This document shows positions 23,237-59,504 of a stretch of DNA of 64,000 nt, in pieces. The notes below the pieces were generated by a model. It worked only from the letters and a program-made list of their open reading frames with translations. It made no database searches and was not told where the DNA came from. Every line of letters starts with the position of its first letter. Position 1 is the first letter of the stretch. A program made the position numbers and the translations under genes. Origin of the DNA: a virus; IMG/VR virus record IMGVR_UViG_3300031851_002880, positions 1-64,000 of that record; one strand, 5' to 3'.

Positions 23237-24529
23237 CTAAGATAAAATCACTAAAGTCCGTATAAGACTTTCATAAAATAAATCGCTAAGAAAGAATCCG
23301 TATATAACAGGACTCGTATCCCAGCGTCTAAGTGTATATCCTAGTACCGATAAACACAGTATGCATACTAACATCCAAACATGAATTGGAAATATTGCAA
23401 TACTTACTGCACTAATGGTAGTTAGTATAAAGGCATTAACATAGTTTTTATAAGACTTATAAAAATATGCAATGTTACCTAACAAATTAAAACCATACCA
23501 ACTTAGGAATAAACAAAACACTGTAACAAAAGGTACAATGTAAATTATGTTTTTAAGTTTGTCTACTGTGTTATCCACACTAAACTGAAACCCGTTTTCC
23601 AACATCAAATAGTAAATTAATACTTCACTACCTGTAATCGGTATAGCCAAGATAAGCAAAGGAAGCAATGAACTTAATGCGCCACTATTGTTCGCTGCCT
23701 CTGCGGCCGCTATGCTTTTCAGTATAGGCATACGAAAGAATCGTTTAACTATATTGGCACTAGCATAACTGCCAAGGATATTTGTTACACCAGGAATAAG
23801 ACCGCACCAAAAACCTATAAAACTTCCTATAAGCGTTGGAATTGCTGTTCCTTTTCCTACTGCATACTTACTTATACGTTTAGGGGTGTCTACATTTAAA
23901 TTATGAACCTTTGCAAGTTCAGGTACAATGTATAGACCAATCATTATACTTGCAAACGGAATACCTAATGCAAGATAACTATTACCAAACGTAAGAAAAC
24001 TATCGAATGTTATCGAATCTATTCCTACTTTAGCAAGAACACCACCTAGTAAGAATAGTAGTAGAGTTGCTATTTTGTTTTGCTTTGTTAAAAACGTAAT
24101 CATTAATATAGCAACTGCAATTATAATTGTTTGTATAATACTGTTATAGAACTTAAATAGATCTAAGACACGTGGTAATGCTAATATAAACACGGTTACA
24201 GCAAACATAACACCTACTGTACTGCTGATTGCGTTACTACTAACTGCTACACTGCCAAAGCCTTTTCTAAATAGTCTATGCCCGTGTTTTGCTGTGCTTA
24301 TAGCAGTAGCATCTCCCGGAATACCGTATAAGATTGCTGTAACGCTGTTTGTGTAGTTCGATGTAATAAGGACGCTTACGTAGTACATCATTATGTTAAC
24401 CGGTGCTGTTGACGCTAATAGAGGGTATAGCAACGCTGTTGCAATGAAAGGTCCTGCGCCTGGAATAATACCAAACACTGTTCCACTAACAATACCTATT
24501 ACTGCCCACAATATTAGTTCTTCAATCAT
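23237..24529 (-). CDS. TctA-like tripartite tricarboxylate transporter permease
   Basis: 430 residues, strongly hydrophobic, about 10-11 membrane segments. Carries the family signatures GIIPGAGPFIATALLYPL near the N-terminus, AILYGIPGDATAIS, WCGLIPGVTNILGSYASA, and AAEAANNSGALSSLLPLLILAIPITGSE, each in the positions expected of TctA (DUF112). Usual length is about 500, so it is compact. TctA imports citrate or other carboxylates using a periplasmic TctC protein, encoded directly downstream. No TctB-sized gene is present. A host-derived nutrient-uptake gene in a phage. Confidence 0.9.
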   Translation of the reverse strand: MIEELILWAVIGIVSGTVFGIIPGAGPFIATALLYPLLASTAPVNIMMYYVSVLITSNYTNSVTAILYGIPGDATAISTAKHGHRLFRKGFGSVAVSSNAISSTVGVMFAVTVFILALPRVLDLFKFYNSIIQTIIIAVAILMITFLTKQNKIATLLLFLLGGVLAKVGIDSITFDSFLTFGNSYLALGIPFASIMIGLYIVPELAKVHNLNVDTPKRISKYAVGKGTAIPTLIGSFIGFWCGLIPGVTNILGSYASANIVKRFFRMPILKSIAAAEAANNSGALSSLLPLLILAIPITGSEVLIYYLMLENGFQFSVDNTVDKLKNIIYIVPFVTVFCLFLSWYGFNLLGNIAYFYKSYKNYVNAFILTTISAVSIAIFPIHVWMLVCILCLSVLGYTLRRWDTSPVIYGFFLSDLFYESLIRTLVILS

Positions 24530-25466
24530 ATTTTTCTACACTTCTATTAAGTTGAGTGTTAGGAGTAATCATATCTTTATCGTTATTTTTTATTTTTTTG
24601 CAATACTGTTTGCACACACTTGGACAAGTATTATAGTCTGTCAAGTAATTATTAAATGAATTAAAATAGTTTTCAAAGTTAATTATACTATTATCTTTAA
24701 TATTAATCGGTGACCAAAATCCTTCTTCTTTATTATTATCTGCCCACCAACAGCAAGGATAGTAATTGCCAAAAGCATCTATGTAATGCATATCTCCAGT
24801 CTTGCAGAAAGGACTAAGTGCTTCTTCATACTCTACTTTGGTGTTTGTAAACCATTCAGGATTGTCATACGATTTTATAATAGTTAACTTAGGATCTAAG
24901 AACCTTGTACGTTGTATCCTAAATTTATCAATACCAATTTTTTTTGCTAGATTTTTTGCTTCTTCTACTTGATGATAATTGTGTTCGAACACAATATACT
25001 TCCATTCTATTTTACACTTGCGTTTCTTTTTTGCAATCAGCTTAAACAGTTCTTGGATCTTATTCCAATTACTATTAACCCGGTATAAATGGTTAGTGTC
25101 TTGTAGGCCATCAATACTTAATGTAATCTGAGAATTACTAGGCCATGTATCTAATACACGCTCCCAAAATGGCAAACTTTGCATACCGTTAGTAGTTACA
25201 TTTATATTCTGGGCGGCAAAAAAATGTTCACTAATATCATGAAACTGTGGATGATAAACTGGATCGCCTAAGTTACCCTGAAAGAAAATATACTTAATTT
25301 CAGGAATTGTTTTTTTAGGAAAGAAGTCCTTTAAATGATCAATGTCGATGTCTAGCTTAGGATCTTTTACCATTGTATTGTAATGAATTGTCCGTAGACA
25401 CGCCGGGCATGCCAATGGACAGCGCCGAGTTAATTCTAAATGCCATCCTACGTTATAATTAACCAT
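24522..25466 (-). CDS. Radical SAM enzyme (DTNHLYR subfamily) with C-terminal SPASM-like cysteines
   Basis: 314 residues. Cluster motif CPLACPAC (Cys16, 20, 23); YIFFQGNLGDPVYHPQF replaces the usual GGEP loop; NVTTNGM; SIDGLQDTNHLYR, a signature shared with several paralogues in this island; FEHNYHQVEEAKNLAKKIG. The C-terminal third has YYPCCWW and a CPSVCKQYC cluster that can hold an auxiliary iron-sulfur centre. SAM-dependent radical chemistry on an unknown substrate. Overlaps the permease start and the 2OG gene stop by 8 bases each, so it belongs to the same transcript. Confidence 0.88.
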   Translation of the reverse strand: MVNYNVGWHLELTRRCPLACPACLRTIHYNTMVKDPKLDIDIDHLKDFFPKKTIPEIKYIFFQGNLGDPVYHPQFHDISEHFFAAQNINVTTNGMQSLPFWERVLDTWPSNSQITLSIDGLQDTNHLYRVNSNWNKIQELFKLIAKKKRKCKIEWKYIVFEHNYHQVEEAKNLAKKIGIDKFRIQRTRFLDPKLTIIKSYDNPEWFTNTKVEYEEALSPFCKTGDMHYIDAFGNYYPCCWWADNNKEEGFWSPINIKDNSIINFENYFNSFNNYLTDYNTCPSVCKQYCKKIKNNDKDMITPNTQLNRSVEKYD

Positions 25467-26121
25467 TAATAAGTTTTCTGTACTTGTCTGTTTGCTTTCC
25501 AGTAATCTTTAATATATTACGGGGCCATGGACCTGTGTTTGCTGTACTATGTGGAATGTTTGCCCAGTCAAACCAAATGATGTCCCCTGCTCTCCAAGGC
25601 GGTACGTAAGTATTGCCAAACTGTATAATGTGTCCTGGTGCCCAATCTTCTAGCATTACAAACACTCTGCCCCATTCATCGTCTGTGGCTCTACTACTAG
25701 TTTGGTCTGTGCGTTCTTTACGCAATCCAGTAAGACTGTCAATGTGTAAGTGTAGCATCATCCCTGTATGTTGCGTTTGTACATTAGTTTGTGCATTAGC
25801 AAGACCGATTTCTTCTGCAATGCTATGTAGTATAGGAGTTTCTTGTGTAGTTATCCACTGTCTGTATACAACATAGTCTAAAGGAATGCCCCAGTCTTTA
25901 CATAATAGTTCTTCATAATCGTAATTAAAACTATCGCCTTCAGGTGCTACCGGTGATGGCCAATAAAAGTCATATTGATTTGCATTTGCAATAGGTATTT
26001 CATCTTTCCAAGAAGGATACATGTTGGCTATTGTCTTAAAGCTCTTACCATGATCACTTTCACGAAATGGATTAAAGTCGTAGTTACTTTGCTCTACTGT
26101 TACTTCCCATCTGTTTTTCAT
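25459..26121 (-). CDS. 2OG-Fe(II) oxygenase-like protein
   Basis: 220 residues. The jelly-roll core shows MLHLHIDSL with His126-x-Asp128, WGRVFVMLEDWAPGHIIQFG, and AGDIIWFDWANIPHSTANTG with His191, followed by Arg201 in PRNILKITG. This gives the complete H-x-D...H...R set for iron and 2-oxoglutarate. Hydroxylase or related oxidation of an unknown acceptor. Flanked by a sulfotransferase-like gene (4-base overlap) and a radical SAM gene, suggesting sequential tailoring. Confidence 0.8.
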   Translation of the reverse strand: MKNRWEVTVEQSNYDFNPFRESDHGKSFKTIANMYPSWKDEIPIANANQYDFYWPSPVAPEGDSFNYDYEELLCKDWGIPLDYVVYRQWITTQETPILHSIAEEIGLANAQTNVQTQHTGMMLHLHIDSLTGLRKERTDQTSSRATDDEWGRVFVMLEDWAPGHIIQFGNTYVPPWRAGDIIWFDWANIPHSTANTGPWPRNILKITGKQTDKYRKLING

Positions 26122-26738
26122 AATGCGTCTCTCAATTCTTTACACCAAGTGTTGACTTCTTGTATATTTGTTATATTGTAATCCGACTTTTGTTTTATAG
26201 GCAGACGTCCGTTGACTTTATAATTTTTTATATCATCGTAATACAAAATTTGTTCTATATTTGTAAAATAATTGTTTTTCATATCATTATATTTTACTAT
26301 TTCGTCTGCTATTTCATTAAAACACGATTTAGGATAATTAAATTCTACAGTTTCTAGTTCTTGAGGTTTCCATACTGCCCATTTGTTTGTTTGTTTAGCA
26401 ACACCCCAGCTAATTACTTGTTCAAATATATTATTTCTTTCAATAAGTGTTACTGGTTTATCTTTGACATATTTCCAAAATAAATCATCTACTTGAGCAC
26501 TCATTGTAACCTTAACTATACTATTTTGATTTAACCATTTTAATCTTCGTTGTGTTTCTTTTTTTATAATATCCGGCGTTAAATTAGCAATACCAAGTTC
26601 TACACGCCAATCATAACCTGGTGTAAATGTTTCGCCTTGTTTTTGCACTATAGGCAACGGATCATAAGCATATTCATTTAGAAACCAATTATAATAAAAT
26701 GTTGTACCACTACGACTTGGACCGATTAGAATTTTCAT
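26118..26738 (-). CDS. Sulfotransferase-like P-loop protein
   Basis: 206 residues. The extreme N-terminus KILIGPSRSGTTFYYNWFL contains PSRSGTT (7-13), the PAPS 5'-phosphosulfate loop of sulfotransferases rather than a classical Walker A. VTLIERNNIFEQVISW in the middle resembles the 3'-phosphate-binding segment (R-x-x-x-x-x-x-S). The remainder is divergent. It would move sulfate from PAPS to a sugar or other acceptor, consistent with glycan decoration. Overlaps the methyltransferase end by 29 bases. Confidence 0.72.
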   Translation of the reverse strand: MKILIGPSRSGTTFYYNWFLNEYAYDPLPIVQKQGETFTPGYDWRVELGIANLTPDIIKKETQRRLKWLNQNSIVKVTMSAQVDDLFWKYVKDKPVTLIERNNIFEQVISWGVAKQTNKWAVWKPQELETVEFNYPKSCFNEIADEIVKYNDMKNNYFTNIEQILYYDDIKNYKVNGRLPIKQKSDYNITNIQEVNTWCKELRDAL

Positions 26739-27645
26739 GACTCATCTCCATAAATAATCTCCACATAGGAGGTCTATATAAGTTGCAATGATCGTAATCT
26801 ATTTTGTCAACTGACAACCCGACATGTTTTGCAAGTGTACTTGTTCCGTGTTCTGTAATGTTAAAGTACCATGTGTACTTCCATTCTCTATCACAAAAAA
26901 AGTATGCTGAATTCTTTTGGGCATCATCTAAATCACCATGTAACCAAGTATGTGCGTGTATTGCATCAGGTTGGAATAGTTTGTAATAGTTATGATTATG
27001 GCTCCACAGTAACAATCCGTCTGGTGCTAAACATTCTTTTAATTTTTTCATGTTACGATATTGTTCATCATAAGTATACCAATTCATACTGCCAAAACAA
27101 ATAACAACGTCCCAAGTTTGTCCTTTAGGATCAAAGTCTGATTGCTTACACATAATGTCTGCTTCGGTCCTATATGGATCAACGCCAGTAACATTGTTTA
27201 AATGTTTTTTGTATTCGTTTACACCACAGCCCATATCAAGTATAGTTAAGTCTGGGCGTTCTTTTTGCATTGCTTGTAGTCTGTCTACAAGTGCTTGTCC
27301 TCGTATGTTCCACTTATTTGCAATAGGCTTGTGTTCAACATCTAATACTTCGCCAACTACACCTGTGGTGCTTGTACCGTTTTCACCTACGAAGTAGTTG
27401 TGTTGATATTGCTTGTCAATTTCTTTTACAAAGTCGCCCATAGTTTTTCCATACCATTGATCAATTTGACCAAGATGAATTGGATGATGTGTATCTCTAA
27501 CTTGCATTGAAAATTCTTGTTCACAAGCATCTATAAATTCTTGTGTAAAAGGTAGTTGACTAATAACAGATTCCGGAGCAATGTTCCAACCGAACATTTC
27601 TTCAACCTTATTCCATATTAGTTTATTAAGTGGATTATTATACAT
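26710..27645 (-). CDS. Class I SAM-dependent methyltransferase
   Basis: 311 residues. An N-terminal helical part of about 130 residues precedes the Rossmann core: LTILDMGCGVNEYKKHL (motif I), VTGVDPY, DADIMCK-type acidic turn (EADIMCKQ), WDVVICFGSMNWYTYD (motif IV region) and CLAPDGLLLWSHN (post-motif). Resembles small-molecule or sugar methyltransferases of class I. The C-terminal 80 residues contain an aromatic-rich strand pair. It starts 8 bases inside the preceding gene. Acceptor unknown. Confidence 0.85.
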   Translation of the reverse strand: MYNNPLNKLIWNKVEEMFGWNIAPESVISQLPFTQEFIDACEQEFSMQVRDTHHPIHLGQIDQWYGKTMGDFVKEIDKQYQHNYFVGENGTSTTGVVGEVLDVEHKPIANKWNIRGQALVDRLQAMQKERPDLTILDMGCGVNEYKKHLNNVTGVDPYRTEADIMCKQSDFDPKGQTWDVVICFGSMNWYTYDEQYRNMKKLKECLAPDGLLLWSHNHNYYKLFQPDAIHAHTWLHGDLDDAQKNSAYFFCDREWKYTWYFNITEHGTSTLAKHVGLSVDKIDYDHCNLYRPPMWRLFMEMSHENSNRSKS

Positions 27646-28399
27646 TTTCGTAATAGTACCTTTCTATATGATCGATGCCTGCTTTTTTCCTAAATTCTTC
27701 TGTAAATATACCTTCGATCTTTAATCCAAAATTCCAATAAGGTAAACTTTCATGACTTCCGTGCCAATTCTGATGATTAAAGAAACCACTCATAGATTGT
27801 GCCTTATGTAGATTTTTTTCATCGTCCATAACGTACATTGTTTGTTCTGGATCCCAATTAATCCAGGCAAATTCTTGCCTATGAGGATAGCATTCGTCCA
27901 CAAGGTCGCAATCTCTGTGATAATTATTAGGTGCATTAGGACGTCTAATCAGTACAGCAAGTCGACCAATTTTTTCAAACACAGGTCCTTTTAAGGATTC
28001 TACCCACGCTTTATAATCATCCCACTCTTTAGGCAAATCTTTACGCCATGTTATGTTATCCCAAACTTCGGCAGGTGTTTCTATACTATCATATACTATA
28101 GGAGAATTATTTTTTGAATCTGGCAAATAACCTTCATCATCTGTTAACATTAAAACATAATAACTACAACGTGCCTTGCTCAATACTTCTATACTCCATG
28201 GATTATCGTGATGATATCCATTATTCTTTGCCCAATTTAAATCTTTGACACTGTTACCGTATTGATCTATTTGTCTTCCGTATACACCCCATCTAACTAA
28301 ATCATAACTTTCTGCTAAGGCAGGAAGTGGATCTGGCATAGTATCTAAGGGCAGTAAATGATCAAAAGATACTACCCATTCATTATTAATTGTTAACAT
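27638..28399 (-). CDS. Putative 2OG-Fe(II) oxygenase-like protein
   Basis: 253 residues from ATG 28399, chosen for its strong GGAGG (28406-28410) 6 bases upstream; the frame is open to 28513. YHRDCDL gives His161-x-Asp163, HRQEFAWINWDPE follows, and FFNHQNWHGSHESLPYWNFGLKIEG supplies distal His213/His216 with Lys227 where Arg is usual. The arrangement fits the iron-binding jelly roll but is less canonical than the neighbouring oxygenases. The N-terminal half (FDHLLPLDTMPDPLPALAES, ARCSYYVLML) is not assigned. Confidence 0.6.
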   Translation of the reverse strand: MLTINNEWVVSFDHLLPLDTMPDPLPALAESYDLVRWGVYGRQIDQYGNSVKDLNWAKNNGYHHDNPWSIEVLSKARCSYYVLMLTDDEGYLPDSKNNSPIVYDSIETPAEVWDNITWRKDLPKEWDDYKAWVESLKGPVFEKIGRLAVLIRRPNAPNNYHRDCDLVDECYPHRQEFAWINWDPEQTMYVMDDEKNLHKAQSMSGFFNHQNWHGSHESLPYWNFGLKIEGIFTEEFRKKAGIDHIERYYYENV

Positions 28400-30197
28400 G
28401 TATTTCCTCCATTTTCCATCTATCATCAAATCTTCCAGCAATGTAGATAGTATTATAATAATCTTCTTTATCTGTTTCTCTAGAATCGGAAAATGTCCAA
28501 TTACCAGGTGCATAATTTTCTACCTGATATTCTATTTTTTGACTTGTTCCTTTCCACATTGAGTAATAATCAATATCGATAAGTTCATGATATTGAGGGA
28601 AGCGTTCTTTCAAAACATCATGTATATTGTTCTTCAAATAATTAATATGTGATATTGCATATTCAGGAAAGAAATAAAGCGGATCACTCATTATATTCCA
28701 TCCATAATGGGTTTGGTTTTTGATTGCACTAAAATAATGATCTTTGCATTCTTGTTTGTGTTCATTAAACCAAGTTTTTGTTTGTAGGAATTTGTAACTT
28801 TCGTTTATCAAGGTAGATCTTTTTTCAATTCCTAGTGTGTGCAATGTGTTACAAGTATTTTGTAAAATGCCATAAAAATATATCGGCTTATAAAAACTTT
28901 TTACTAAAAACAAACTTTCAAAAACATCATCTTCAGACATACTGCTTGTTGAAGTACAAATATTATCTGTAAATTTATCACCGTGATAGTGTTTTGTAAA
29001 TCCTCGTATATTAGCCCAGTTTATTTCAAATTTTTCATTATATTCATTGCTACTAAATTCTGCATTGTTTAACTTACTGAGTTGATTTATTTGAAACTTG
29101 TTAAAGGTATGCGGCAAGTCAATTAGTTCTTCCATACCGCCTTTAAAATTAGCGTATGTATCTCCTGGCATTGGAAAAACTAATTCTGTATACACAGCAA
29201 TGTCTGATTCATTCATATCCTTGATAATATCACTCATTTCCTGTAATGTAAATGCATTAGTACGTTTTACATTATCAAGAGTTTGCTGATTTAAACTTTG
29301 TAAACTTAAACCAAATATACTATCTAGACCACCGTGTATAAGTTTCTTTGCACAACGTAGGACTCTATCACCCCTTGCCTTACTCCAGGTAGGCAAAAAC
29401 TTACCTTTCCAATTATGTTTCTTTTTTAGATCAATTAAAGCATCAACAATTTCTTCATCTCTATCGAAGATGCCAAAGTTTGCATCAGCTACATCAATTA
29501 CTGTCACTCCATTTTTTACAATCCATTCTAATTCATCAAGAACACGGTGCATACCAAATTTCTTTACTTTTGCATATGCTGTGCTGCCTATATCACAAAA
29601 TGTGCAACTGTAAGGACATCCTCTGTTACTCTCAAATACACATCTAACAGTACGTGTTTCATCACGTTTGTTTTCTACTAAGTTGCCGAAAAACCCATTT
29701 AGATATGGACTAGGTACTTCTTCTAAATTAATAGTGTTACGCTTGCGATTGTAAAAATCTTTTGTTATAATACCCTCAACTTCTAAAAAATCCTTGGTTT
29801 GTAAATTTGTTTTAAGCACATCAACTAATACTTCTTCTCCATAATACGGAATTAGTATATCGACATGATTGTGCTGTTGCATCCATTCTACAGAATACTT
29901 AGGTTCAGGACCTCCTACAATAACAAGACATTGAGGATATTTGTTTTTTATTTCTTTTAAGGCAATATTTGTACGTTCCCAATTCCAAATATAACAGCTA
30001 CATAATATAACATCAGGATCAACTATTTCATCTATAACAGTTTCTGCATCTTCGTTTTCCCAAAATGTTTTTACCATTTTATAAGAATTGTTTATAGATT
30101 CAAATTGTTGGGCATAACTCCACAGTGTACCAATTGCTTGTGGCAAGGTAGCACTAGGATACCAATTAGATAATTGAATTGCGTATACATTATTCAT
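28386..30197 (-). CDS. B12-binding-type radical SAM enzyme
   Basis: 603 residues from ATG 30197, which overlaps the previous stop by 8 bases. N-terminal cobalamin-domain-like fold (about 1-130: DPDVILCSCYIWNWERT, CLVIVGGPEP, VDILIPYYGEE), then CPYSCTFC (Cys194, 198, 201), KFGMHRVLDELEWI, DVADANFGIFDRD and SLQSLNQQTLDNVKRTN. This is the B12-radical SAM layout used for methylations and rearrangements at inert carbons. The D-x-H-x-x-G ligand motif is absent, so cobalamin, if bound, is likely base-off without protein His. The C-terminal 200 residues are unassigned. Closely similar in plan to the gene at 32512. Confidence 0.9.
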   Translation of the reverse strand: MNNVYAIQLSNWYPSATLPQAIGTLWSYAQQFESINNSYKMVKTFWENEDAETVIDEIVDPDVILCSCYIWNWERTNIALKEIKNKYPQCLVIVGGPEPKYSVEWMQQHNHVDILIPYYGEEVLVDVLKTNLQTKDFLEVEGIITKDFYNRKRNTINLEEVPSPYLNGFFGNLVENKRDETRTVRCVFESNRGCPYSCTFCDIGSTAYAKVKKFGMHRVLDELEWIVKNGVTVIDVADANFGIFDRDEEIVDALIDLKKKHNWKGKFLPTWSKARGDRVLRCAKKLIHGGLDSIFGLSLQSLNQQTLDNVKRTNAFTLQEMSDIIKDMNESDIAVYTELVFPMPGDTYANFKGGMEELIDLPHTFNKFQINQLSKLNNAEFSSNEYNEKFEINWANIRGFTKHYHGDKFTDNICTSTSSMSEDDVFESLFLVKSFYKPIYFYGILQNTCNTLHTLGIEKRSTLINESYKFLQTKTWFNEHKQECKDHYFSAIKNQTHYGWNIMSDPLYFFPEYAISHINYLKNNIHDVLKERFPQYHELIDIDYYSMWKGTSQKIEYQVENYAPGNWTFSDSRETDKEDYYNTIYIAGRFDDRWKMEEIHVNN

Positions 30198-30726
30198 ACT
30201 TAAAGTTCTCTGTGTTTGTCCAAATAGTATTGTTGTCAATTTTTTTAAATAAGTTATCTGTCCAGTCAAATAAATCCATCATTAATACCCAACGAGGTGC
30301 AGTATCTTCACGTTTGCGTGGCACTGCATGTAACATACGTGTGTTGAATATAGTTGGCTTGTCCATTGTAAATTGTTCTACAGGATGATTAAATTGGTCA
30401 TAATAATATTGCGGACTATTACTAAAGTCTCCTAGTAACGGAATTCCAAAATTTCCCCATTTACGATGATCAATATGATTAACTAATCCACCAGGCTTTA
30501 CACTACTCAAAAAGAAACTAGGACGTTTAAATTCTGCATTTAATCCTTGATATATTTCATCTAATATAGGAAATTGTTCTATACTAATAGAAAGTTCTTG
30601 TACATTCCATTCTAACCCATTCTGGTCATAACCGTCTTTCCATTCAGTTGCTTTTGCATAATCAATAATATCATTAAAGACAGATGGATCATATTGTAAA
30701 TTTAATTTTCGGTGATACCAATTCAT
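30190..30726 (-). CDS. 2OG-Fe(II) oxygenase-like protein
   Basis: 178 residues. FLSSVKPGGLVNHIDHRKWGNFG contains His84-x-Asp86; TIFNTRMLHAVPRKRE supplies His133 and PRWVLMMDLFDW gives Arg145. Complete metal and 2-oxoglutarate ligand set in the right order, in the style of aspartyl/asparaginyl hydroxylases and phage 2OG oxygenases. First of three consecutive oxygenase-like genes. Abuts its upstream neighbour by one base. Confidence 0.78.
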   Translation of the reverse strand: MNWYHRKLNLQYDPSVFNDIIDYAKATEWKDGYDQNGLEWNVQELSISIEQFPILDEIYQGLNAEFKRPSFFLSSVKPGGLVNHIDHRKWGNFGIPLLGDFSNSPQYYYDQFNHPVEQFTMDKPTIFNTRMLHAVPRKREDTAPRWVLMMDLFDWTDNLFKKIDNNTIWTNTENFKYE

Positions 30727-31364
30727 TATTTCAACCTATACTGATTAATGATTGTTTCGAATAACTCTTCGTCAAACTTTAAACACATTACAATCATTAT
30801 ACAATCATCTTTCATACTAAACACACTATGGCGTTTACTAGCATTAAACCAATGTAGACTTCCATTCTTTACTTCCATTAACTTATCTTCATACAAAAAC
30901 TTCATTGTATACTTAGATGAGTTATTAACAAAACCAATTAGTCTAGTATCATCATAATTATAATCTAATTTATTAATATCGTAATGTTCAGGAAAATATC
31001 CGCCAGCATTTAATTTTAAGAAATGACAACGCCCGAGCCAAGGCTTCCAAGGCTCAATTACTTTTTGTAGTGTAGGCATTGTTTCATACACGCTTGTATA
31101 TGTTTTAATATCTTGGTTTGTAATTTCTACATTATTATCTTTGTTATATTCATACAAACTATCTAAGTCTGGAATACCACTAAGTCCACCATCTAAACTA
31201 GTAATACTAAGCCCCCAACGATTATTAGGCTTTCTTACGTTGTATGGTTTCCAGTCATTATTATATGGCTTTAATTCTTCCATTATTTTGTTTGAATTAA
31301 ACGACTCCATTTCGAGCCAATCGCCCATTGTGTGCAATCGGTTGTATGCTATATCGTACTTCAT
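30726..31364 (-). CDS. 2OG-Fe(II) oxygenase-like protein (no clear Arg)
   Basis: 212 residues. RCHFLKLNAGGYFPEHYDINK has His127-x-Asp129, then RLIGFVNNSS, a KFLYEDKLMEVKNGSLHWFNASKRH stretch with His179 as distal ligand, and CIMIVMCLKF. The residue expected to bind 2-oxoglutarate (Arg/Lys about 10 after the distal His) is not evident, so cosubstrate use is less certain. Similar in plan to aspartyl beta-hydroxylase-like phage proteins. Overlaps the next oxygenase gene by 4 bases. Confidence 0.72.
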   Translation of the reverse strand: MKYDIAYNRLHTMGDWLEMESFNSNKIMEELKPYNNDWKPYNVRKPNNRWGLSITSLDGGLSGIPDLDSLYEYNKDNNVEITNQDIKTYTSVYETMPTLQKVIEPWKPWLGRCHFLKLNAGGYFPEHYDINKLDYNYDDTRLIGFVNNSSKYTMKFLYEDKLMEVKNGSLHWFNASKRHSVFSMKDDCIMIVMCLKFDEELFETIINQYRLK

Positions 31365-32002
31365 ATAAACTTTACCAATTTATTCTTGTCATTAACTTCC
31401 CAGTTAATAAGTGTTCCATCAGCAATACCTTGTAGGATATCTTCATACGAATGATGTCGCCAACAGCAACTTAATATTGCCCTATCAGGATCGCTTGTGT
31501 TTTGTACTCCATGTACTTTACTGCCTTTAAATAACCAAGGAGCAAATTCATTTGTAGAATTGCTGTGTGCATATTCCATATTAAATATATGTGTTTCTCT
31601 ATCGAAGTCATCATAAAAAGTTTGAGGACTTGTATCACCAAACTCGCCTCTAACTGCAAAGTTTAAAATTGCAAGTCTATTACGATCCTGATGCGGAGGC
31701 ACTCCGCCAATTGGTGTTGCTGTATACAACATTGTGTCTGGCATGATAGGCACGTTAAATAATTCTGCCAGTTCTTGATGAAACTGTGTCCATACATAGT
31801 TCTTACATTCTAGCCGTGGGTTGTTTTCATATGCTTCATGTACTGTCCAACGAACATGTCCACAATCAAATATGTACCAGTCATCTTGCTCAATACTATT
31901 AAGATGTTTTTCGACAAATGTACGATCGTACCATAGAGTTGGTAGTTCTACAGCATATTCACTTGTCTTGTCCTGTAGCGTCAACTGTGTCTCTCGCTTC
32001 AT
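31361..32002 (-). CDS. 2OG-Fe(II) oxygenase-like protein
   Basis: 213 residues from ATG 32002, which is 5 bases from AGGTGG (32008-32013); upstream ATGs at 32005 and 32017 are in frame. IGGVPPHQDRNRLAILNFAVRG gives His104-x-Asp106; KVHGVQNTSDPDRAILSCCW gives His164 and Arg174. A clean 2OG oxygenase signature. It overlaps the end of the Prx5-like gene by 44 bases. Third in the run of oxygenases. Confidence 0.8.
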   Translation of the reverse strand: MKRETQLTLQDKTSEYAVELPTLWYDRTFVEKHLNSIEQDDWYIFDCGHVRWTVHEAYENNPRLECKNYVWTQFHQELAELFNVPIMPDTMLYTATPIGGVPPHQDRNRLAILNFAVRGEFGDTSPQTFYDDFDRETHIFNMEYAHSNSTNEFAPWLFKGSKVHGVQNTSDPDRAILSCCWRHHSYEDILQGIADGTLINWEVNDKNKLVKFI

Positions 32003-35473: not shown

Positions 35474-35479
35474 GACTAC

Positions 35480-35507: not shown

Positions 35508-35510
35508 CCT

Positions 35511-46603: not shown

Positions 46604-46608
46604 ATCTT

Positions 46609-50862: not shown

Positions 50863-51833
50863 GTTTGTATTTCCTCATTTGATATCTTCATTTGTAAAAA
50901 TCGTTGCTGATTATACTTTAGTCTTTGTTGTATATCATTTTTATCTATTGAATCTATGCTATTAAGATATTTACTTAGACTGTGTATTGCACTGTTGAAT
51001 CTTGATACATCTTCGTGAATTGTATCGTATGTGTTGTCTAGTATATCGTCAAATGTATCATATCCTTGTTGCCTTAAGAATTCTAATAAATTAGGCTGTC
51101 CTATATACAATGCTAGATGGCAGTTTGCAATAGGCTTCCAAGTTTTTTCTGTTATAAATAATCCTCGACTAGCTTCAGGATACGTTTCAGTTACTAAACT
51201 AATACTTGTTTCTTCATATATCCATTTATTATGTAATCTATCATTTTTGTGTATCTCGCCATTTGATCTATCAACAACTAGATGACGATGGCTGTTACGC
51301 ATGTGGTCAATTTCTGGTGTATCTTTTTTGTATATTTCTTTAAATGTATCGTAGTGATAATTGTTATCAAGCTGGTTATACCTATTTAGGAAACTTACTA
51401 ATCCAGTATCATACAACCCTGTGTCGTATAACATTTGTAGGGTATAGTAACGATGCCAGTCAGGCCTTCCATTCAAGCACAAAAACTTTTTAGCAAATGT
51501 ATTTTGATTATTTGTTTGTACTCCTAATTCCTTTATATGTGTAAGATAGTCGTATGCCCAGTAATTAAAGAATATGCCTTTAGACATATTTGCGTTACAG
51601 TGAATTACTTTGCCAAAGTTGTTGAAGTAATCAATATCTATATATGCAGGATCTCCTTCAGTATGAAATATTACTAGCGGAGTATCTTTGTCATATTCTA
51701 TATTACCTTTGCCTTCTATATGCTCACATATCTGCAGATTGCCATTAAAGTCTGAATATTTTTCAATGACAGAACCTAGTCTATTAGTATCAAGACACTC
51801 AAATGTACCTTTTGCTAAAGTAATTTTTGCCAT
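50853..51833 (-). CDS. Putative glycosyltransferase (TEK motif family)
   Basis: 326 residues. ISLVTETYPEASRGLFITEKTWKPIANCHLALYIG and QQGYDTFDDILDNTYDTI are the diagnostic block shared with 47755 and 48734. Upstream FLCLNGRPDWHRYYTLQML parallels MCLNRKPHEHR in 47755. The shared blocks make the three genes clear paralogues despite divergence elsewhere. Starts 19 bases inside the radical SAM gene's end. Confidence 0.65.
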   Translation of the reverse strand: MAKITLAKGTFECLDTNRLGSVIEKYSDFNGNLQICEHIEGKGNIEYDKDTPLVIFHTEGDPAYIDIDYFNNFGKVIHCNANMSKGIFFNYWAYDYLTHIKELGVQTNNQNTFAKKFLCLNGRPDWHRYYTLQMLYDTGLYDTGLVSFLNRYNQLDNNYHYDTFKEIYKKDTPEIDHMRNSHRHLVVDRSNGEIHKNDRLHNKWIYEETSISLVTETYPEASRGLFITEKTWKPIANCHLALYIGQPNLLEFLRQQGYDTFDDILDNTYDTIHEDVSRFNSAIHSLSKYLNSIDSIDKNDIQQRLKYNQQRFLQMKISNEEIQTWL

Positions 51834-53702: not shown

Positions 53703-53703
53703 A

Positions 53704-54819
53704 TTACTCTCCTAATAATAGTGTGTTTAGTTCAGGAAATACTTGTGCAAAATTTTCTTCCCTGTGTTTATCTAATATATGCGTATATTTAAAGAAACTA
53801 TCAATTGCTCCGTTGCAATTAGACATTTGATCTGCAAATGGTTTGAATTTATCATTGCTAAGTTTATCTTTAATTACTTGATGTGCATGTTGAGGTATTG
53901 CTTGCACATTATAGTGCTTAGGCCCATGTAGTGCGTTTAAGAACAACCGGTCTTCAGGAAGACCAAGTGTGTTAAACCATTGTTGAAATTCTGGCAAATA
54001 TAATATATTAAAAATATTTACAGTGTGGCAAATACTTGTGTGCAAGAACGGTTGTTCATTTGCAAAACGCAGATTACTTTCAGCTTCTTTCCAAACTGCT
54101 GGATGACGTTGGTATTCAAACTGTTTGCCTGTGCCGTCAATACTAAACATAAGTTCAACCCATTTAAATTCTTTCCAAAGATCTAACATTTTTTGTGTGG
54201 GCTTTATTGTAGTATTAGTATTATAGTGTAAACTAATTTTATGTGCATGACCTCTTTCTACACACTTTTCTAATAATTCAAAATGTTTCTTAATTAATAA
54301 AGGTTCACCGCCTGTGAAATCTAGCCATTCAATATACTCAATTACTCTTTCAAGGTCACGCCAAATAGGACTATTATCTTCTATCCAGTAACTTTTAAGG
54401 TTAGGATTAAGAACTTCTCCGTATAATAATTTTTCATCTTCGGCCCATTTGAAACTGCTAAAGCTACTACATATTCTGCACTTTAAATTACACACTGTTC
54501 CTAGCTTTAGATCATAATAGATAGGCGGACCTAGTTTTCCAATCCTATGAAACATATGTTCAAAGCGTTCATTATCTGCTTGACGTTTACTACGTATACC
54601 CTGCGATTCGTTTTTCCAACATTGGTTACAACCAGCAGGTTTCTTTCCTGCTAAGAAATCTTTGCGCAATGTTTTCATTTCTTCACTAGACCAGATTTTG
54701 CTTAGACCGTCTGTGCCAAAGTGTCCTACAGGCGGGCCTTCATATAAGCAACAAGGCTTTGCATTGCCTACTGCATCAGCTTCAATATGTATCCAAGGAT
54801 TTATACAAATATCACTCAA
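53704..54819 (-). CDS. Radical SAM enzyme with N-terminal twitch/SPASM-like domain
   Basis: 371 residues. N-terminal module CINPWIHIEADAVGNAKPCC (Cys5, 23, 24) and CNQCWKNESQGIRSKR (Cys64, 67); core CNLKCRIC (Cys110, 114, 117), LDFTGGEPLLIKKHFELL, LHYNTNTTI, LMFSIDGTGKQFEYQRHP. Closely parallel to 39348 and 55510, including ESxGxRSKR and a terminal FPEL. Good candidate for peptide or glycopeptide modification by analogy with SPASM enzymes. Overlaps the SGNH gene by 8 bases. Confidence 0.9.
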   Translation of the reverse strand: MSDICINPWIHIEADAVGNAKPCCLYEGPPVGHFGTDGLSKIWSSEEMKTLRKDFLAGKKPAGCNQCWKNESQGIRSKRQADNERFEHMFHRIGKLGPPIYYDLKLGTVCNLKCRICSSFSSFKWAEDEKLLYGEVLNPNLKSYWIEDNSPIWRDLERVIEYIEWLDFTGGEPLLIKKHFELLEKCVERGHAHKISLHYNTNTTIKPTQKMLDLWKEFKWVELMFSIDGTGKQFEYQRHPAVWKEAESNLRFANEQPFLHTSICHTVNIFNILYLPEFQQWFNTLGLPEDRLFLNALHGPKHYNVQAIPQHAHQVIKDKLSNDKFKPFADQMSNCNGAIDSFFKYTHILDKHREENFAQVFPELNTLLLGE

Positions 54820-55513
54820 TTGCGCTCCTAACCATAGGGTATATATATTCGTCTGCTACAAGTTTGTGTCCTTGAGGTGATATATGATAACCATTGTCAA
54901 TGTAATGATTATTATCTAAAAAGTTGTGTACACTATCTTGATGTACCGGTACTGGTAGTACTTTTTCTACATCTATAGGCGTTGGTACCCACGGAAAGAA
55001 TATAATCTTGTCACCAAAGTTTTCTATATAAGATTTAAGCATATCTAGTTGACACATTAATTGTTCGGTAGCCAATGTACTAAATGTATGATTTTCGTAT
55101 AAGAATTTTGTAGTAGTGTCAATATCACTTTTCTTACTTAAACTATTAGAGTATTCACCTACAGTAATCTTGTGTGTCTTTTCTTCTGTTATTCCCCAAA
55201 GGCGTGTATGCTTGCCTTCTCGTGTCCATACTGGTTGTTCTAGATTGTCATGAAATCGGTTGTCTAGAAAATTTTTCTTACCACTAATAGATATTTGCAT
55301 TCTATCAAATGTAGTTAACTGAAACAAAACAACTTTTGGTTTATACTTTTGGTAAAGTCTATATGCTGAGTATACTGCATACGCATTGTCTATGCCGGCA
55401 TGTCCGCCATTTATAACTGTTGTTCCGCACTTGTCTTGTAGATAAGCCGAAAAAGTTTCATTTGATTCTACACCAGTACCAAACGTCCAGCTGCATCCAA
55501 TAGTAAGTATCAT
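54812..55513 (-). CDS. SGNH/GDSL-like hydrolase
   Basis: 233 residues. LTIGCSWTFGTG (block I, Ser8), INGGHAGIDNAYAV (Gly/Asn blocks II-III), and YHISPQGHKLVADEYI (His-containing block V) near the C-terminus. This is the standard single-domain SGNH hydrolase size. Likely esterase or acyltransferase acting on a sugar or lipid-linked intermediate; no signal peptide, so cytoplasmic. Placed between two twitch radical SAM genes. Confidence 0.82.
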   Translation of the reverse strand: MILTIGCSWTFGTGVESNETFSAYLQDKCGTTVINGGHAGIDNAYAVYSAYRLYQKYKPKVVLFQLTTFDRMQISISGKKNFLDNRFHDNLEQPVWTREGKHTRLWGITEEKTHKITVGEYSNSLSKKSDIDTTTKFLYENHTFSTLATEQLMCQLDMLKSYIENFGDKIIFFPWVPTPIDVEKVLPVPVHQDSVHNFLDNNHYIDNGYHISPQGHKLVADEYIYPMVRSAIE

Positions 55514-56700
55514 TTTACCAAGTCCTGTAATTCAGGAAATGTTTCTGCAAAATTTTCATTCCTAATTATGTCTACCATTTCTATGTTTTTCTTAAACTCT
55601 AGTATTAGATGAGATGTATCTGCATCATTCATAAATTTTGCAACTGATAAGAATCCACGCTCAACTCTTTCTTCGCCCCATCTCTTACACTTTTCTGCCA
55701 TATCTGTATATTTTTTAGTTAATTCTTTTTTCATGCTTGCAGGTAGTATTTGTAAACTTAGATGCTCAGGATGATGGACAATGTTAATATGAAAGTCTCT
55801 TGGGTGTCCTATAAAGTTATCTTCTAATGCCCATTCGTAGAAATCTGTCATATGAAATGCATTTTGTACACTAACTGTAAAGTTAATAAAAAAGTTTATA
55901 TCAGGTGCTTTTTGTATTATTGCTTTTCTATTAGCAACAATCTTATTCCAGTCAGTGCCTTTACGTATATATTCTGCTCTTGCGCCGTAGCCATCTATAC
56001 TTGCTCCTACATGTACGTTATCAAATCTAGGCCAAATGTCAAGAACATCAAGTTTTTTGTATCTTAACTGGCTAAGATTAGTATTATAACGAATGATAGT
56101 ATCGTACTTTTGCATTTCATCTAGTTTATTTAAGATACGGTAATGTTCTTCCATTAGTAATGGCTCGCCGCCAGCAAAATAAATATCTTCTACTTTATCA
56201 AATAACGGTTCTATTTGATTCCACATGTTAATATTTTTACCTGGGTCAGGTAAGTCATTAGGTAATTGACCCCACATCTTTTTTTGATCTTCGTACCAAC
56301 CTGTACTTAACTGTGGACCGCAACTTCTGCAACGCATATTACATATATTAGAAAATCTAAAGTCCCAGTAGTGTATACTTAAATCGTCTAAACTTCCGTC
56401 AGCATTTGTTGTTTGTAATAGATCCATATGATGTGAAAAAGTCTCATTCATATGTGTACGCAAACTTGTTCCGCCGTTTGATTCATTAATAAAGCAACGT
56501 TTACAACTTGCCGGTTGTTCATTGTTAAGAAACTGTGTACGTAGCTTTTTCATATCCTTGCCATTCCAAATTTCAGCAAGAGTATTTTCATTTAGATTAC
56601 CGACTGAATCTTCCATTGCTGTTAAGCAACAAGGATATACATCGTTGTTAGGCCATGTATGTAAATGTATCCACGGTGATATGCATTTGTTGTCAGTCAT
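55510..56700 (-). CDS. Radical SAM enzyme with N-terminal twitch/SPASM-like domain
   Basis: 396 residues. N-terminal CISPWIHLHTWPNNDVYPCC (Cys6, 24, 25) and CKRCFINESNGGTSLR (Cys66, 69); core CNMRCRSC (Cys120, 124, 127), IYFAGGEPLLMEEHYRIL, IIRYNTNLSQL, VGASIDGYGARAEYIRKG. Ends ETFPELQDLVK, the same ending as its paralogues. Overlaps both neighbours (4 and 8 bases). Radical SAM enzyme of unknown substrate. Confidence 0.9.
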   Translation of the reverse strand: MTDNKCISPWIHLHTWPNNDVYPCCLTAMEDSVGNLNENTLAEIWNGKDMKKLRTQFLNNEQPASCKRCFINESNGGTSLRTHMNETFSHHMDLLQTTNADGSLDDLSIHYWDFRFSNICNMRCRSCGPQLSTGWYEDQKKMWGQLPNDLPDPGKNINMWNQIEPLFDKVEDIYFAGGEPLLMEEHYRILNKLDEMQKYDTIIRYNTNLSQLRYKKLDVLDIWPRFDNVHVGASIDGYGARAEYIRKGTDWNKIVANRKAIIQKAPDINFFINFTVSVQNAFHMTDFYEWALEDNFIGHPRDFHINIVHHPEHLSLQILPASMKKELTKKYTDMAEKCKRWGEERVERGFLSVAKFMNDADTSHLILEFKKNIEMVDIIRNENFAETFPELQDLVK

Positions 56701-58138
56701 ATGTTGCTAGAGGCTCATCAATATTTTTTGGATCTGGCTTTAGTATCCAACCTTCTTTTTCTGCAAGTTCCATAATACTTGCATCAGTGTCTGGAATACT
56801 TTCAACCCAGTCTGTTAGTATTTTAGGAAATACACTTAGGCTTTTGTTCCTACGTACATCATATTGCTGATAGAAAGTTTTAAAGTCACGCCACAACGTA
56901 GCAGGGTTACTTGTACGCCTATGCGGAGCATCTACTGTAACTAGGTAATCTATCAAACGTTCAATACTTGCCTTTTCAAACTCGTGCCATAATTCTTTGT
57001 CTTTGTTTGCTGCATACCAAGTAGATAAATTTTTGTGGAGTTCATCTTTAATATGGTTAGGTAAAGCAAGTGGTGACTGAAAGCTAGGAAATCTCAAAAG
57101 GTTAACACTTACACTTGGCCATTTACTTCCTGTTGTTTCTTTCAATTCATATATTTGATCTAAGAAATCTGTAATACTAAACAAGCATAAACTATTAATA
57201 GTCATCATTACATGTAGATTTGCATTTGCTTCTGACAATATACGCTTTACATTGTTTAACCATTGTTCATAAACTAGCCCGTCACGTATATATTCTGCTT
57301 GAGCACCTACAGCTTCACAACTTGTATAAATTTCAAAGTTCTTAATACCATGCGACTTTTGTATAAGTTTATCTATTATATCATTCTTAGCAATTAGATT
57401 ACTATTAATTGCAAAACGCATCTTGCTATTTTGTGCTTCAAACCAATCAAACAATTTCCAAGTGTTATGGCTCATTAAAGGCTCGCCGCCTGTAATGCGT
57501 AGTTCTTCTAAACTACTGCTAAGTCCGTTTTCCCACCATTTCCAAAATGCTTGAATGTAAGGATTATCGTCATCATCTTTGTAAGGTTGTGTCCAACTGC
57601 CGTCTTGTCTAAATGCACCAGCACCATCACTTACTAAGTTTGTGTACTCGCCATTCTTTTTAATATCTTTAGCCCATGTGGTTGAGAAACTTGCATTACA
57701 ATAACTACATGCTAAGTTACACGTTCTGTCAAACGCAATTTCAAAAGTTTTGAGGTGAACATTTTCTGTGTAGTTCATATCGTATGCACGTTGTAATTCG
57801 TCGTCATCATAGATAATAGTTTTAAAGACTCTGTCACTAACAGCATCTTTTTTCATATCTTCCATTTTCCAACAATACTCACACTCACGTGGTCGTTGTC
57901 CAACTTGCATTTGCTTACGCATTTCTTTTTTGTGCTTTGTGTTGTGTATAGCAGTAAAGTCTGCTTCAACTTCTTCAAGCGGTATTTTGTGTGCCGGCGG
58001 GTGATGACAACTTGTAGTAGTGCCGCTACCTAACCATGTAGTTGCATTATACCATTTAGCACCACAGAAGCTAGGACTTTTAGCGTTAATAACTCTGTCT
58101 CTATACTCTGTTAAACTTTCGTCGGGTTTCTTAGGCAT
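56693..58138 (-). CDS. Radical SAM enzyme, CHHP-type N-terminal cluster domain
   Basis: 481 residues. N-terminal SFCGAKWYNATTWLG (Cys25), SCHHPPAHKIPLEEV (Cys44), CEYCWKMEDMKKDAVSDR (Cys86, 89) form an auxiliary-cluster set with His-rich variation; core CNLACSYC (Cys140, 144, 147), LRITGGEPLMSHNTWKLFD, FAINSNLIAKND, IYTSCEAVGAQAEYIRDGL. Pairwise very similar to 58131 throughout. C-terminal about 120 residues are helical with a VFPKILTDW ending. Overlaps the next gene by 8 bases. Confidence 0.9.
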   Translation of the reverse strand: MPKKPDESLTEYRDRVINAKSPSFCGAKWYNATTWLGSGTTTSCHHPPAHKIPLEEVEADFTAIHNTKHKKEMRKQMQVGQRPRECEYCWKMEDMKKDAVSDRVFKTIIYDDDELQRAYDMNYTENVHLKTFEIAFDRTCNLACSYCNASFSTTWAKDIKKNGEYTNLVSDGAGAFRQDGSWTQPYKDDDDNPYIQAFWKWWENGLSSSLEELRITGGEPLMSHNTWKLFDWFEAQNSKMRFAINSNLIAKNDIIDKLIQKSHGIKNFEIYTSCEAVGAQAEYIRDGLVYEQWLNNVKRILSEANANLHVMMTINSLCLFSITDFLDQIYELKETTGSKWPSVSVNLLRFPSFQSPLALPNHIKDELHKNLSTWYAANKDKELWHEFEKASIERLIDYLVTVDAPHRRTSNPATLWRDFKTFYQQYDVRRNKSLSVFPKILTDWVESIPDTDASIMELAEKEGWILKPDPKNIDEPLATYD

Positions 58139-59504
58139 TCCAGTCCTCTAATATTTCTCTATATTCAGGAAACACTTTCCTAAAGTTTTTTCTTCTACGT
58201 TTATCGTATGCTTGTATGTATCTTACAAAATCCTGTCTATGTTCAATAGCTGGCTCAGAATTACGTAAATAATCACAGAACCTTTTTATTTGATCCCACT
58301 CTTCTAAATAAAGTCTAGCAAACTTATCTGGGCTATGATACTTTAACCAACTTTCACAGGTAGACTCAATTGCACTTGCATATAGTTCTCTATCCTCAGT
58401 ATCTAAGAGTGTGCATTGTAAATGCGGTGGCCACCGCATAATGTTTATGCTTAGAGGTATCCTATTATATTCAAACGCTTTGTTATACTTTTTTCTAAAG
58501 TCCATTACTACGTTAATAAATTTCTCAAATGTTGGCAATGCTAATATGTTTATAGTTGTCATCATTGCTACTGAACTGTCAGTTTGGTCTAATACTTGTT
58601 CTACGTTTGTTATCCATTGTGCATAGTCTAACCCATCACGCGAGTATTCTGCTTGCTCACCAATACTTTCTAAACTTGTGTACACATCTATTTTTTTGAC
58701 TTTACCTTTTAGTTTGTTAATTGACTCTATCAACTTTGTTATTAGTTTATCAGGAACACACAAGTTTGTGTTTATTGCTATTTCTAAATTAGGCTGTGGA
58801 TTTTCTACTAGCATGTCTAGAAGTTTCCATGTTTCTTTACTCATTGTAGGTTCGCCGCCAGTAATACGCAACACCTTTAAATGAGGTAACGCATCAGGAA
58901 ACCATTTCCAAAAGGCCTTAACGTAAGGATTTACTTCACTGTTAAGGTAAGGAAACTTTTGTGTCTTTTTGAGATAACTTAGATCATGTGATCCGTGCTT
59001 TGTAGGATAAGATCCGTTTTGCTGTATATCTTCCATCCACTTACTGCTAATTTCAGGTGAACAGTATGAACATGCAAAGTTACATGCATTAGAAAAACTT
59101 ACTTCTAAGTAACTTGGATATGTATTTTCATTAGGATTTGATTTTGCAATTTCATCAAATCTATCCCATGCCCAATAGTCGGCTGTCTTATAGTGTCTGT
59201 CACTAAAGTAATTTTTATCTAAGTCTTCTATGTTCCAACAGTAATCACACTCTTTTGGACGTTCTCCGTTCAGCATCATTTCACGCTGTTTCTTTTTGTG
59301 TTTACTATTGTGTAGTGCATGTGGATTACCCATTATTTCACTAATAGGTATTTTATGAGGAGCAGGATGGTGACAACTATGATTATATCCGTTTTGCAAG
59401 TATAATGTAGTTTGTAACCACTTAGCTGTACAGAAACTACAACTTACAGAATTTATCTGTTTCCGTTTCTGCTCAAGTAATTCGATGCGCTTTTCATTAC
59501 TCAT
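58131..59504 (-). CDS. Radical SAM enzyme, CHHP-type N-terminal cluster domain
   Basis: 457 residues. SFCTAKWLQTTLYLQ (Cys25), SCHHPAPHKIPISEI (Cys44), CDYCWNIEDLDKNYFSDR (Cys86, 89), core CNFACSYC (Cys141, 145, 148), LRITGGEPTMSKETWKLLD, IAINTNLCVPDK, VYTSLESIGEQAEYSRDGL. Each N-terminal Cys sits at the same residue number as in 56693, so the two are a recent tandem duplication. Overlaps the glycosyltransferase by 4 bases. Substrate unknown. Confidence 0.9.
   Translation of the reverse strand: MSNEKRIELLEQKRKQINSVSCSFCTAKWLQTTLYLQNGYNHSCHHPAPHKIPISEIMGNPHALHNSKHKKKQREMMLNGERPKECDYCWNIEDLDKNYFSDRHYKTADYWAWDRFDEIAKSNPNENTYPSYLEVSFSNACNFACSYCSPEISSKWMEDIQQNGSYPTKHGSHDLSYLKKTQKFPYLNSEVNPYVKAFWKWFPDALPHLKVLRITGGEPTMSKETWKLLDMLVENPQPNLEIAINTNLCVPDKLITKLIESINKLKGKVKKIDVYTSLESIGEQAEYSRDGLDYAQWITNVEQVLDQTDSSVAMMTTINILALPTFEKFINVVMDFRKKYNKAFEYNRIPLSINIMRWPPHLQCTLLDTEDRELYASAIESTCESWLKYHSPDKFARLYLEEWDQIKRFCDYLRNSEPAIEHRQDFVRYIQAYDKRRRKNFRKVFPEYREILEDWNA

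Follow-up and report, generated by a model that had tools for sequence, protein, structure and literature searches.

Sixteen radical SAM genes beside the tail fibres of a virus record, and a related gene set in Bdellovibrionota chromosomes

Introduction

The host-recognition clusters of pelagimyophages and cyanomyophages, T4-like viruses in which tailoring genes lie beside tail fibres and glycosyltransferases and cassettes for radical S-adenosylmethionine (SAM) enzymes come and go (PMC7029224, 2020), are among the closest described systems to the locus analysed here, an island of sixteen radical SAM genes in 35 kb of the minus strand of the IMG/VR virus record IMGVR_UViG_3300031851_002880. Our window spans positions 1-64,000 of this linear record (87,458 bases; labelled G000). 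Pelagibacter phage Mosig EXVC030M, an isolate, has a smaller tailoring island between its tail fibres and VrlC, with a MoaA-like radical SAM enzyme, Asp/Arg hydroxylases, a peroxiredoxin, an aminotransferase and a carbamoyltransferase, but it has two matches to the radical SAM family PF04055 against 16 here. While host-recognition clusters lie downstream of VrlC, the position of our island is analogous only: the giant virion protein encoded upstream of it could not be supported as a VrlC (best blastp E 0.017 against Mosig VrlC, no phmmer match).

TARA_ERS488813_N000010, an environmental T4-like genome of marine origin, was published in 2017 (PMC5332604) with 12 radical SAM genes; the description on which our comparison rests presents them as Fe-S related genes, without a module, a gene order or a bacterial counterpart. 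The statement in an earlier note on this window that no described phage pathway has this number of radical SAM genes is therefore only partly right, given that genome, the pelagimyophage cassettes and the viral contigs reported below, which reach 23. Vibrio phage KVP40 (Schizotequatrovirus) likewise has radical SAM genes adjoining a QueC-like gene, but only five PF04055 matches, at 19-26% identity to those of the island. Two island enzymes share the B12-binding plus radical SAM architecture of the cobalamin-dependent C-methylases TokK and CysS (joint profile 3.9e-86 and 1.7e-61, respectively), yet they score well below the KedN5-family cut-off and are paired, in a virus, with 2-oxoglutarate (2OG)-oxygenase-like hydroxylases and a redoxin. 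Six others pass the cut-off of NF033640, the NCBIfam family of twitch domain-containing radical SAM proteins, whose name carries no reaction; here six different members share one island. To our knowledge, no pathway accounts for sixteen radical SAM genes.

Results

All sixteen minus-strand open reading frames (ORFs), cited in the earlier note by their low, stop-codon ends, are present with CxxxCxxC in each. PF04055 matches 15 of the 16 directly at E<=1e-3, and over the whole record it finds exactly 16 places, all within the island, the sixteenth at 1.5e-4; that gene (41739-42788) is also matched by NCBIfam (8.8e-16), so that all 16 combine PF04055 with the motif, as expected of the radical SAM superfamily. 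The motif is kept in at least 98% of the non-redundant homologues of each enzyme (for example, 489/489, 405/405 and 389/389), and with exactly 16 PF04055 places in the record we reject the possibility of chance motifs. We also reject a misassembly, since two further viral contigs, G001 (137,746 bases) and G002 (78,931 bases), also carry the island: from 34334 to where the record ends their gene order is unchanged, and amino-acid identity is mostly 92-100%. Thus, neither of the weaknesses that the earlier note had anticipated, unconserved cysteines or a misassembly, was borne out. Measured against G001, the ratio of nonsynonymous to synonymous substitution (dN/dS) is <=0.18 for 12 of 15 radical SAM genes and 0.36-0.46 for the other three, whereas the left part (22454-34334) varies among these near-identical relatives.

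The island is not unique. In 50 viral records picked by radical SAM homology, and hence a biased sample, PF04055 counts run from 1 to 23 and are at least 16 in eleven. For scale, Mosig has 2, P-SSM2 0 and KVP40 5, and five bacterial genomes have 18-45; the sixteen genes in 35 kb approach the count of a whole 3.6-Mb bacterial genome scored alike (18). In GenBank phages, the island enzymes B12a and rK (listed below) had one weak match each and twN matched only KVP40-like Vibrio phages, at 20-24%.

As the earlier note had proposed, there are at least four subfamilies: six N-terminal-twitch enzymes above the 170-bit cut-off of NF033640, two B12-binding enzymes in which PF02310 precedes PF04055, both above cut-offs, two MoaA/viperin-like enzymes and six SPASM-type enzymes. 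Models with a named reaction fell short: the KedN5 C-methyltransferase model NF033712 (cut-off 700 bits) gave 194.8 and 193.5 bits with the B12-binding pair, and the best scores were 62 bits for the tungsten-cofactor maturase TIGR04317 (cut-off 380), 42 bits for viperin NF038283 (cut-off 180) and 52 bits for MoaA TIGR02666 (cut-off 284).

Since no named-reaction model reaches its cut-off, no reaction can be assigned by family. Among solved radical SAM structures, BlsE comes nearest to the SPASM group (7e-9) and SkfB, which acts on a peptide, nearest to the twitch enzymes (6e-10); a Protein Data Bank (PDB) search with rD alone found no match.

Two modules emerge, a conserved core and a separable B12 cassette. 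The core follows the tail-fibre genes and comprises GT8 glycosyltransferases, a GT-A-like enzyme, a methyltransferase and six radical SAM enzymes. Across many contigs the order tail fibre-x116-GT8b-GT8a-x205-GTx-...-MT2-s74-rK-rJ-rE-twH-rG-rD recurs, with insertions and losses. The core radical SAM genes keep their order at roughly 50-88% identity, while accessory twitch genes are often no more than 25-40% alike from one contig to the next. Co-occurrence was counted in 138 non-redundant loci fetched with radical SAM queries, which inflates counts between radical SAM genes and affects the others less: GT8a occurs with GTx in 20/20 loci, rK with twH in 30/35 and s74 with rK in 13/13. The core genes and their close neighbours in the window are as follows.

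62715-63065, minus: x116, small conserved protein that lies between the tail fibre and GT8b; in 16/20 GT8a loci
61865-62722, minus: GT8b, glycogenin-like glycosyltransferase paired with GT8a; order after the tail fibre conserved
61030-61893, minus: GT8a, glycogenin-like glycosyltransferase (joint profile A11 with GT8b)
59501-60427, minus: GTx, GT-A-fold enzyme with an invariant DxD (D65/D67 in alignment A10)
44966-46603, minus: GTrep, multi-domain relative of GTx; 40-49% homologues beside twH/rD in Bdellovibrionota
44065-45009, minus: MT2, methyltransferase-like by eye; in 22/35 rK loci, 33-41% beside GTx/twH/rK in Bdellovibrionota
43854-44078, minus: s74, conserved helical protein of 74 amino acids
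42797-43861, minus: rK, SPASM-type radical SAM; PF04055 3.9e-8, 44-47% in Bdellovibrionota
41739-42788, minus: rJ, SPASM-type radical SAM; TIGR04317-like (the NCBIfam match given above)
39348-40754, minus: twH, N-twitch radical SAM; NF033640 424.9 bits, 47-61% in Bdellovibrionota
38189-39361, minus: rG, MoaA/viperin-like radical SAM; PF04055 8.2e-11, 40-45% in Bdellovibrionota
36182-37123, minus: rE, radical SAM plus SPASM; PF04055 1e-6, PF13186 3.7e-5
34334-35473, minus: rD, MoaA/viperin-like radical SAM and core marker; PF04055 1.2e-13

The remaining radical SAM genes outside the B12 cassette are these.

58131-59504, minus: twP, N-twitch; NF033640 330.9 bits
56693-58138, minus: twO, N-twitch; NF033640 303.7 bits, 52-53% to Bacteriovoracaceae copies
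55510-56700, minus: twN, N-twitch; NF033640 410.7 bits
53704-54819, minus: twM, N-twitch; NF033640 353.9 bits
51815-52708, minus: rL, radical SAM plus C-terminal SPASM; PF13186 4.5e-15, PF04055 2.4e-7
40744-41742, minus: rI, SPASM-type; PF04055 1.9e-7
37123-38199, minus: twF, N-twitch; NF033640 191.5 bits
24522-25466, minus: rA, SPASM-type; PF04055 1.1e-4, phrog_21308 9e-26

The GT8 pair has both glycogenin-type homology (profile A11 against glycogenin-1 in the PDB, 2.5e-8) and the DxD of that family (invariant D99/D101). GTx had no match by sequence search, nor in any of 50,697 phage records; its structural model, with a predicted local distance difference test score (pLDDT) of 82, retrieved in Foldseek almost only GT-A glycosyltransferases or sugar nucleotidyltransferases, weakly (E ~1e-3).

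The second module runs B12a-redoxin-2OG4-2OG3-2OG2-B12b-MT1-2OG1 and is separable from the core: among B12a loci, the redoxin is found in 20/20, 2OG4 in 19/20 and MT1 in 15/20. The 2OG-oxygenase-like proteins have no match in Pfam, but the H-x-D...H triad of 2OG-Fe(II) enzymes is invariant in all four alignments (2OG1-2OG4); a PDB search with the 2OG4 profile found no match. TctA-TctC follows the cassette in three other loci (L036, L037 and L041), and relatives of the ATP-grasp-like ligase also lie near the cassette in other contigs.

32512-34395, minus: B12a, B12-binding radical SAM, TokK-like; PF02310 3.3e-11, PF04055 1.6e-8
31959-32528, minus: redoxin/peroxiredoxin-like; PF08534 1.3e-15
31361-32017, minus: 2OG4, 2OG-oxygenase-like; invariant H109-x-D111...H169...R179
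30726-31364, minus: 2OG3, Asp/Asn beta-hydroxylase-like; invariant H127-x-D129...H179, PDB beta-hydroxylase 3.4e-4, 35% to the Mosig Asp_Arg_Hydrox protein
30190-30726, minus: 2OG2, 2OG-oxygenase-like; invariant H84-x-D86...H133...R145
28386-30269, minus: B12b, B12-binding radical SAM, TokK-like; PF02310 5.8e-9, PF04055 9e-10; true start probably ~25 codons downstream of the ORF start
26710-27645, minus: MT1, class I methyltransferase; PF13489 2.7e-8
25459-26121, minus: 2OG1, 2OG-oxygenase-like; invariant H126-x-D128...H191...R201
22454-24529, minus: TctA permease (PF01970 5.8e-59) and TctC-like binding protein (by eye)
21154-22464, plus: ATP-grasp-like ligase by eye, no Pfam match; 54-59% homologues in L021, L036, L041 and L268

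The core of this phage gene set is also present in chromosomes of Bdellovibrionota, the phylum to which predatory bacteria belong, represented by metagenome-assembled genomes (MAGs). With rD as marker at E<=1e-60, orthologues at 59-69% identity were found in 16 of 241 sampled Bdellovibrionota genomes and in 0 of 1,100 other genomes (385 Alphaproteobacteria, 369 Gammaproteobacteria and 346 Bacteroidota). The contigs that bear it reach 1.62 Mb, several with housekeeping neighbours, and no gp23 was found in 18 Bdellovibrionota genomes with such genes; for these reasons we reject a prophage origin of the bacterial copies, with the possible exception of the segment in G224 described below. As in the virus, homologues of GTrep, GTx, MT2, twH, rD, rK, rE, rJ, rG, the PP-loop protein and 2OG3 occur together, in compact runs such as GTx-GTrep-twH-rK-rD (G059) and GTrep-twH-rD-rK (G060), or in a 25-kb island of twelve radical SAM genes with GTrep, GTx, MT2, PP-loop and 2OG3 homologues (G146:C34:164962-189367). 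In contrast to the virus, gp23 is lacking, and the tail-fibre family (1/241) and the GT8 pair are seen only in one genome, G224. The GTx family is found in 15 of 241 Bdellovibrionota, 13 of which also carry rD (expected 1.0, p 5e-17 ignoring kinship); since GTx and rD lie on different contigs or >100 kb apart in several genomes, this link is not just one of proximity. In a midpoint-rooted tree, the rD sequences from phages of this group fall into a single well-supported clade that lies among bacterial rows, with a second phage group apart.

In G224 (L400, G224:C21:127060-139512), the phage order twH-GTrep-rD-fibre-x116-GT8b-GT8a-x-GTx-rSAM stands at the end of a cellular contig and adjoins a pheT-like gene; the segment, truncated where the contig stops, may be a partial phage insert or a domesticated module.

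Upstream of the island, on the same strand, the minus-strand block runs beyond the right edge of the window into tail-fibre genes, among them one for a collar-domain tail fibre and others for fibre-like proteins, and on to a giant virion protein, a single ORF of 5,111 amino acids (71646-86981 of the record) that in its first part has a match to a virion structural PHROG (2e-160). The present fragment lacks gp23, but G001, its closest relative, which also has the island, encodes a gp23 that is closest to those of large T4-related phages, PA5oct and GAP32 among them; judged by this sequence, the genome is T4-like. Other contigs of the virus group reach 236-257 kb, and the record is therefore probably a piece of a large genome.

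Further genes lie between those listed above.

54812-55513, minus: SGNH-like hydrolase by eye; no Pfam match
50853-51833, minus: GTc, putative glycosyltransferase-like, no Pfam support; 29% homologue within the Bdellovibrionia island G057
50050-50862, minus: SGNH-like hydrolase by eye; no Pfam match
47755-50053, minus: GTa and GTb, putative glycosyltransferases by eye; no Pfam match
46622-47755, minus: UDP-glucose/GDP-mannose dehydrogenase family enzyme; PF03721 9.9e-20, PF00984 4.9e-16
35511-36185, minus: QueC-like PP-loop protein, no Pfam match of its own; relatives match PF06508
27638-28513, minus: possible further 2OG-oxygenase-like protein by eye, no Pfam match; two distant homologues only
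26118-26738, minus: sulfotransferase-like by eye, no Pfam match; absent from the relatives sampled

The neighbours named in the earlier note thus hold up in part: GT8, the redoxin, the sugar-nucleotide dehydrogenase and MT1 have profile support and the oxygenases an invariant triad, whereas the SGNH, sulfotransferase-like and other glycosyltransferase labels were given by eye.

Discussion

Our preferred reading, on which we are evenly divided, is that the island belongs to a host-recognition region of a large T4-like virus, serves there in surface tailoring, and makes or remodels a radical-tailored surface glycan. The core (GT8a, GT8b, GTx/GTrep, MT2, twH, rD, rK, rE, rG and rJ) would build a saccharide and remodel it chemically, with sugar transfer by the GT8 and GT-A enzymes and an acidic sugar from the sugar-nucleotide dehydrogenase; the twitch and SPASM enzymes may take hydrogens off sugar carbons and so epimerise, dehydrate, decarboxylate or cross-link them. 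The second cassette, with its two B12-dependent TokK-like C-methylases, four 2OG-oxygenase-like hydroxylases, redoxin, MT1 and TctA/TctC, would add methyl and hydroxyl groups, and the product could be shown on the envelope of the infected cell or on the virion. The saccharide substrate is our inference, as are the proposed reactions, the place where the product is displayed and any part that it plays in masking or decorating receptors. The heavily tailored glycan suggested in the earlier note remains the best reading, and both synteny and the phylogenetic co-occurrence seen in bacteria back the GT-A/GT8 link. Because the bacterial core usually comes without a fibre, we slightly favour an envelope glycan over a fibre-specific one. 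Since the same core is found in Bdellovibrionota chromosomes, the phage and cellular pathways share one origin.

Several observations weigh against a glycan. No island enzyme has a characterised close homologue that acts on sugars, the fold matches of GTx are at a low TM-score (~0.3), and the SGNH, GTa-c, sulfotransferase-like and MT2 labels were assigned by eye. The co-occurrence statistic for GTx and rD ignores shared ancestry among Bdellovibrionota. Furthermore, one Bacteriovoracaceae MAG (L374-L375, G054:C41:68150-80146) has eight twitch radical SAM genes, up to 53% identical to phage ones, among housekeeping genes and without glycosyltransferases between them, and the twitch genes of other bacteria stand in mixed contexts rather than in polysaccharide loci; we dropped this general context as a functional clue, as the families are mixed and give no signal. 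A small secreted-looking protein lies within the eight-gene run.

It is unlikely, but the best of the alternatives, that at least the B12 cassette makes a small molecule, a diffusible metabolite produced by the TokK-like C-methylases, 2OG oxygenases, redoxin, MT1 and ATP-grasp-like ligase, with uptake through TctA/TctC and, in relatives, a TonB plug protein. TokK and CysS, which the B12 pair resembles, are both small-molecule methylases, the cassette is self-contained, and it moves with TctA/TctC and in some contigs with a 542-amino-acid TonB plug protein. However, the B12 enzymes reach only 195 of the 700 bits of the KedN5 model, so their substrate cannot be inferred from it, and among the genes of the window we recognised no synthetase of the assembly-line, beta-lactam or siderophore kind. 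In L041, that 542-amino-acid protein with a TonB-receptor plug domain is the neighbour of TctA/TctC.

The combination of SPASM/twitch and B12 radical SAM enzymes with methyltransferases and 2OG hydroxylases is reminiscent of proteusin-type sets. In this way the enzymes of the island could act on a virion protein, for instance the tail fibre, or on a ribosomal peptide, as in pathways to ribosomally synthesised and post-translationally modified peptides (RiPPs), which we consider quite unlikely. The match of the twitch profile to SkfB fits such chemistry, as do the abutting tail fibres and the Bdellovibrionota genome that has fibre, x116, GT8, GTx and radical SAM genes together. Against it, no RiPP maturase model of NCBIfam reaches its cut-off, and the fibre gene is found in 1/241 Bdellovibrionota against 16/241 for rD; the core therefore exists without the fibre, and the fibre as an obligate substrate, suggested by G224, is not supported. 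The earlier note had offered a glycopeptide or peptide as products while seeing no precursor, and we found none either, s74 alone having been examined and ORFs of <60 amino acids not searched. As a precursor s74 is unlikely, being conserved along its whole length (14-row alignment) and predicted to form a 3-helix fold (pLDDT 89) with no PDB match. No RiPP recognition element, for which no dedicated model was run, surfaced in Pfam scans.

That the region is a plastic dumping ground for unrelated radical SAM genes with no single pathway fits the variable left part and the divergent accessory twitch genes, but it is very improbable given the kept order and identity of the core, its purifying selection and its recurrence as a set in bacteria. 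Most improbable is hypermodification of nucleic acid, in which radical SAM and QueC-like enzymes would elaborate 7-deazaguanine in phage DNA: the other arm encodes GTP cyclohydrolase I, QueE and a TGT-like protein and the PP-loop relatives match QueC, but the core stands with GT-A-like genes in Bdellovibrionota and follows tail-fibre rather than replication genes, and we know of no base-modification pathway that uses as many as sixteen enzymes.

Returning to the surface glycan, we suggest, short of even conviction, that at least some viruses of this group have Bdellovibrionota as hosts. More tentatively, we propose an undescribed glycan chemistry centred on radical SAM enzymes (GTx/GTrep, twH, rD and rK), common to large T4-like viruses and Bdellovibrionota and moved between them at least once, that would let the virus build or rewrite the sugar on the surface of a predatory-type bacterium, which may be its host; the B12 methylation and hydroxylation cassette would be optional. 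We found nothing relevant on Bdellovibrio, radical SAM and glycosyltransferases in the open-licence literature. If the glycan reading is true, uncultured viruses carry a large and as yet untapped set of radical enzymes, sensitive to oxygen, that act on carbohydrates, and relatives of these viruses keep the set under selection. The compact four-to-six-gene chromosomal version in Bdellovibrionota makes the question testable in bacteria, and hints at a possible host for a virus group without one.

Some minor observations remain. Beside radical SAM genes, QueC-like PP-loop proteins turn up repeatedly, several to a cluster, in viral contigs (L016, L100 and L105), and also in KVP40 and in the Bdellovibrionota islands; six such proteins from other viral contigs match PF06508 (QueC), and they probably do something other than ordinary preQ0 synthesis. 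A dense run of about a dozen radical SAM genes in 20 kb, distantly related to the phage ones, is present in an Elusimicrobia MAG (L372, G055:C5:40580-60725). A DNA search of window positions 1-25000 against phage records gave no match. On the plus strand of the other arm lie genes for GTP cyclohydrolase I (7860-8543, 5.6e-38), a QueE-like protein (8653-9630, phrog_2076 7e-52) and a TGT-like protein of 541 amino acids labelled by eye (1438-3063), a probable 7-deazaguanine DNA-modification set. The QueE of the earlier note is thus real, but its motif is CxxxCxxF rather than CxxxCxxC, the third cysteine apparently being displaced by an insert. Also on the plus strand, a lipoprotein (14694-15521) resembles, by eye, a polysaccharide lyase.

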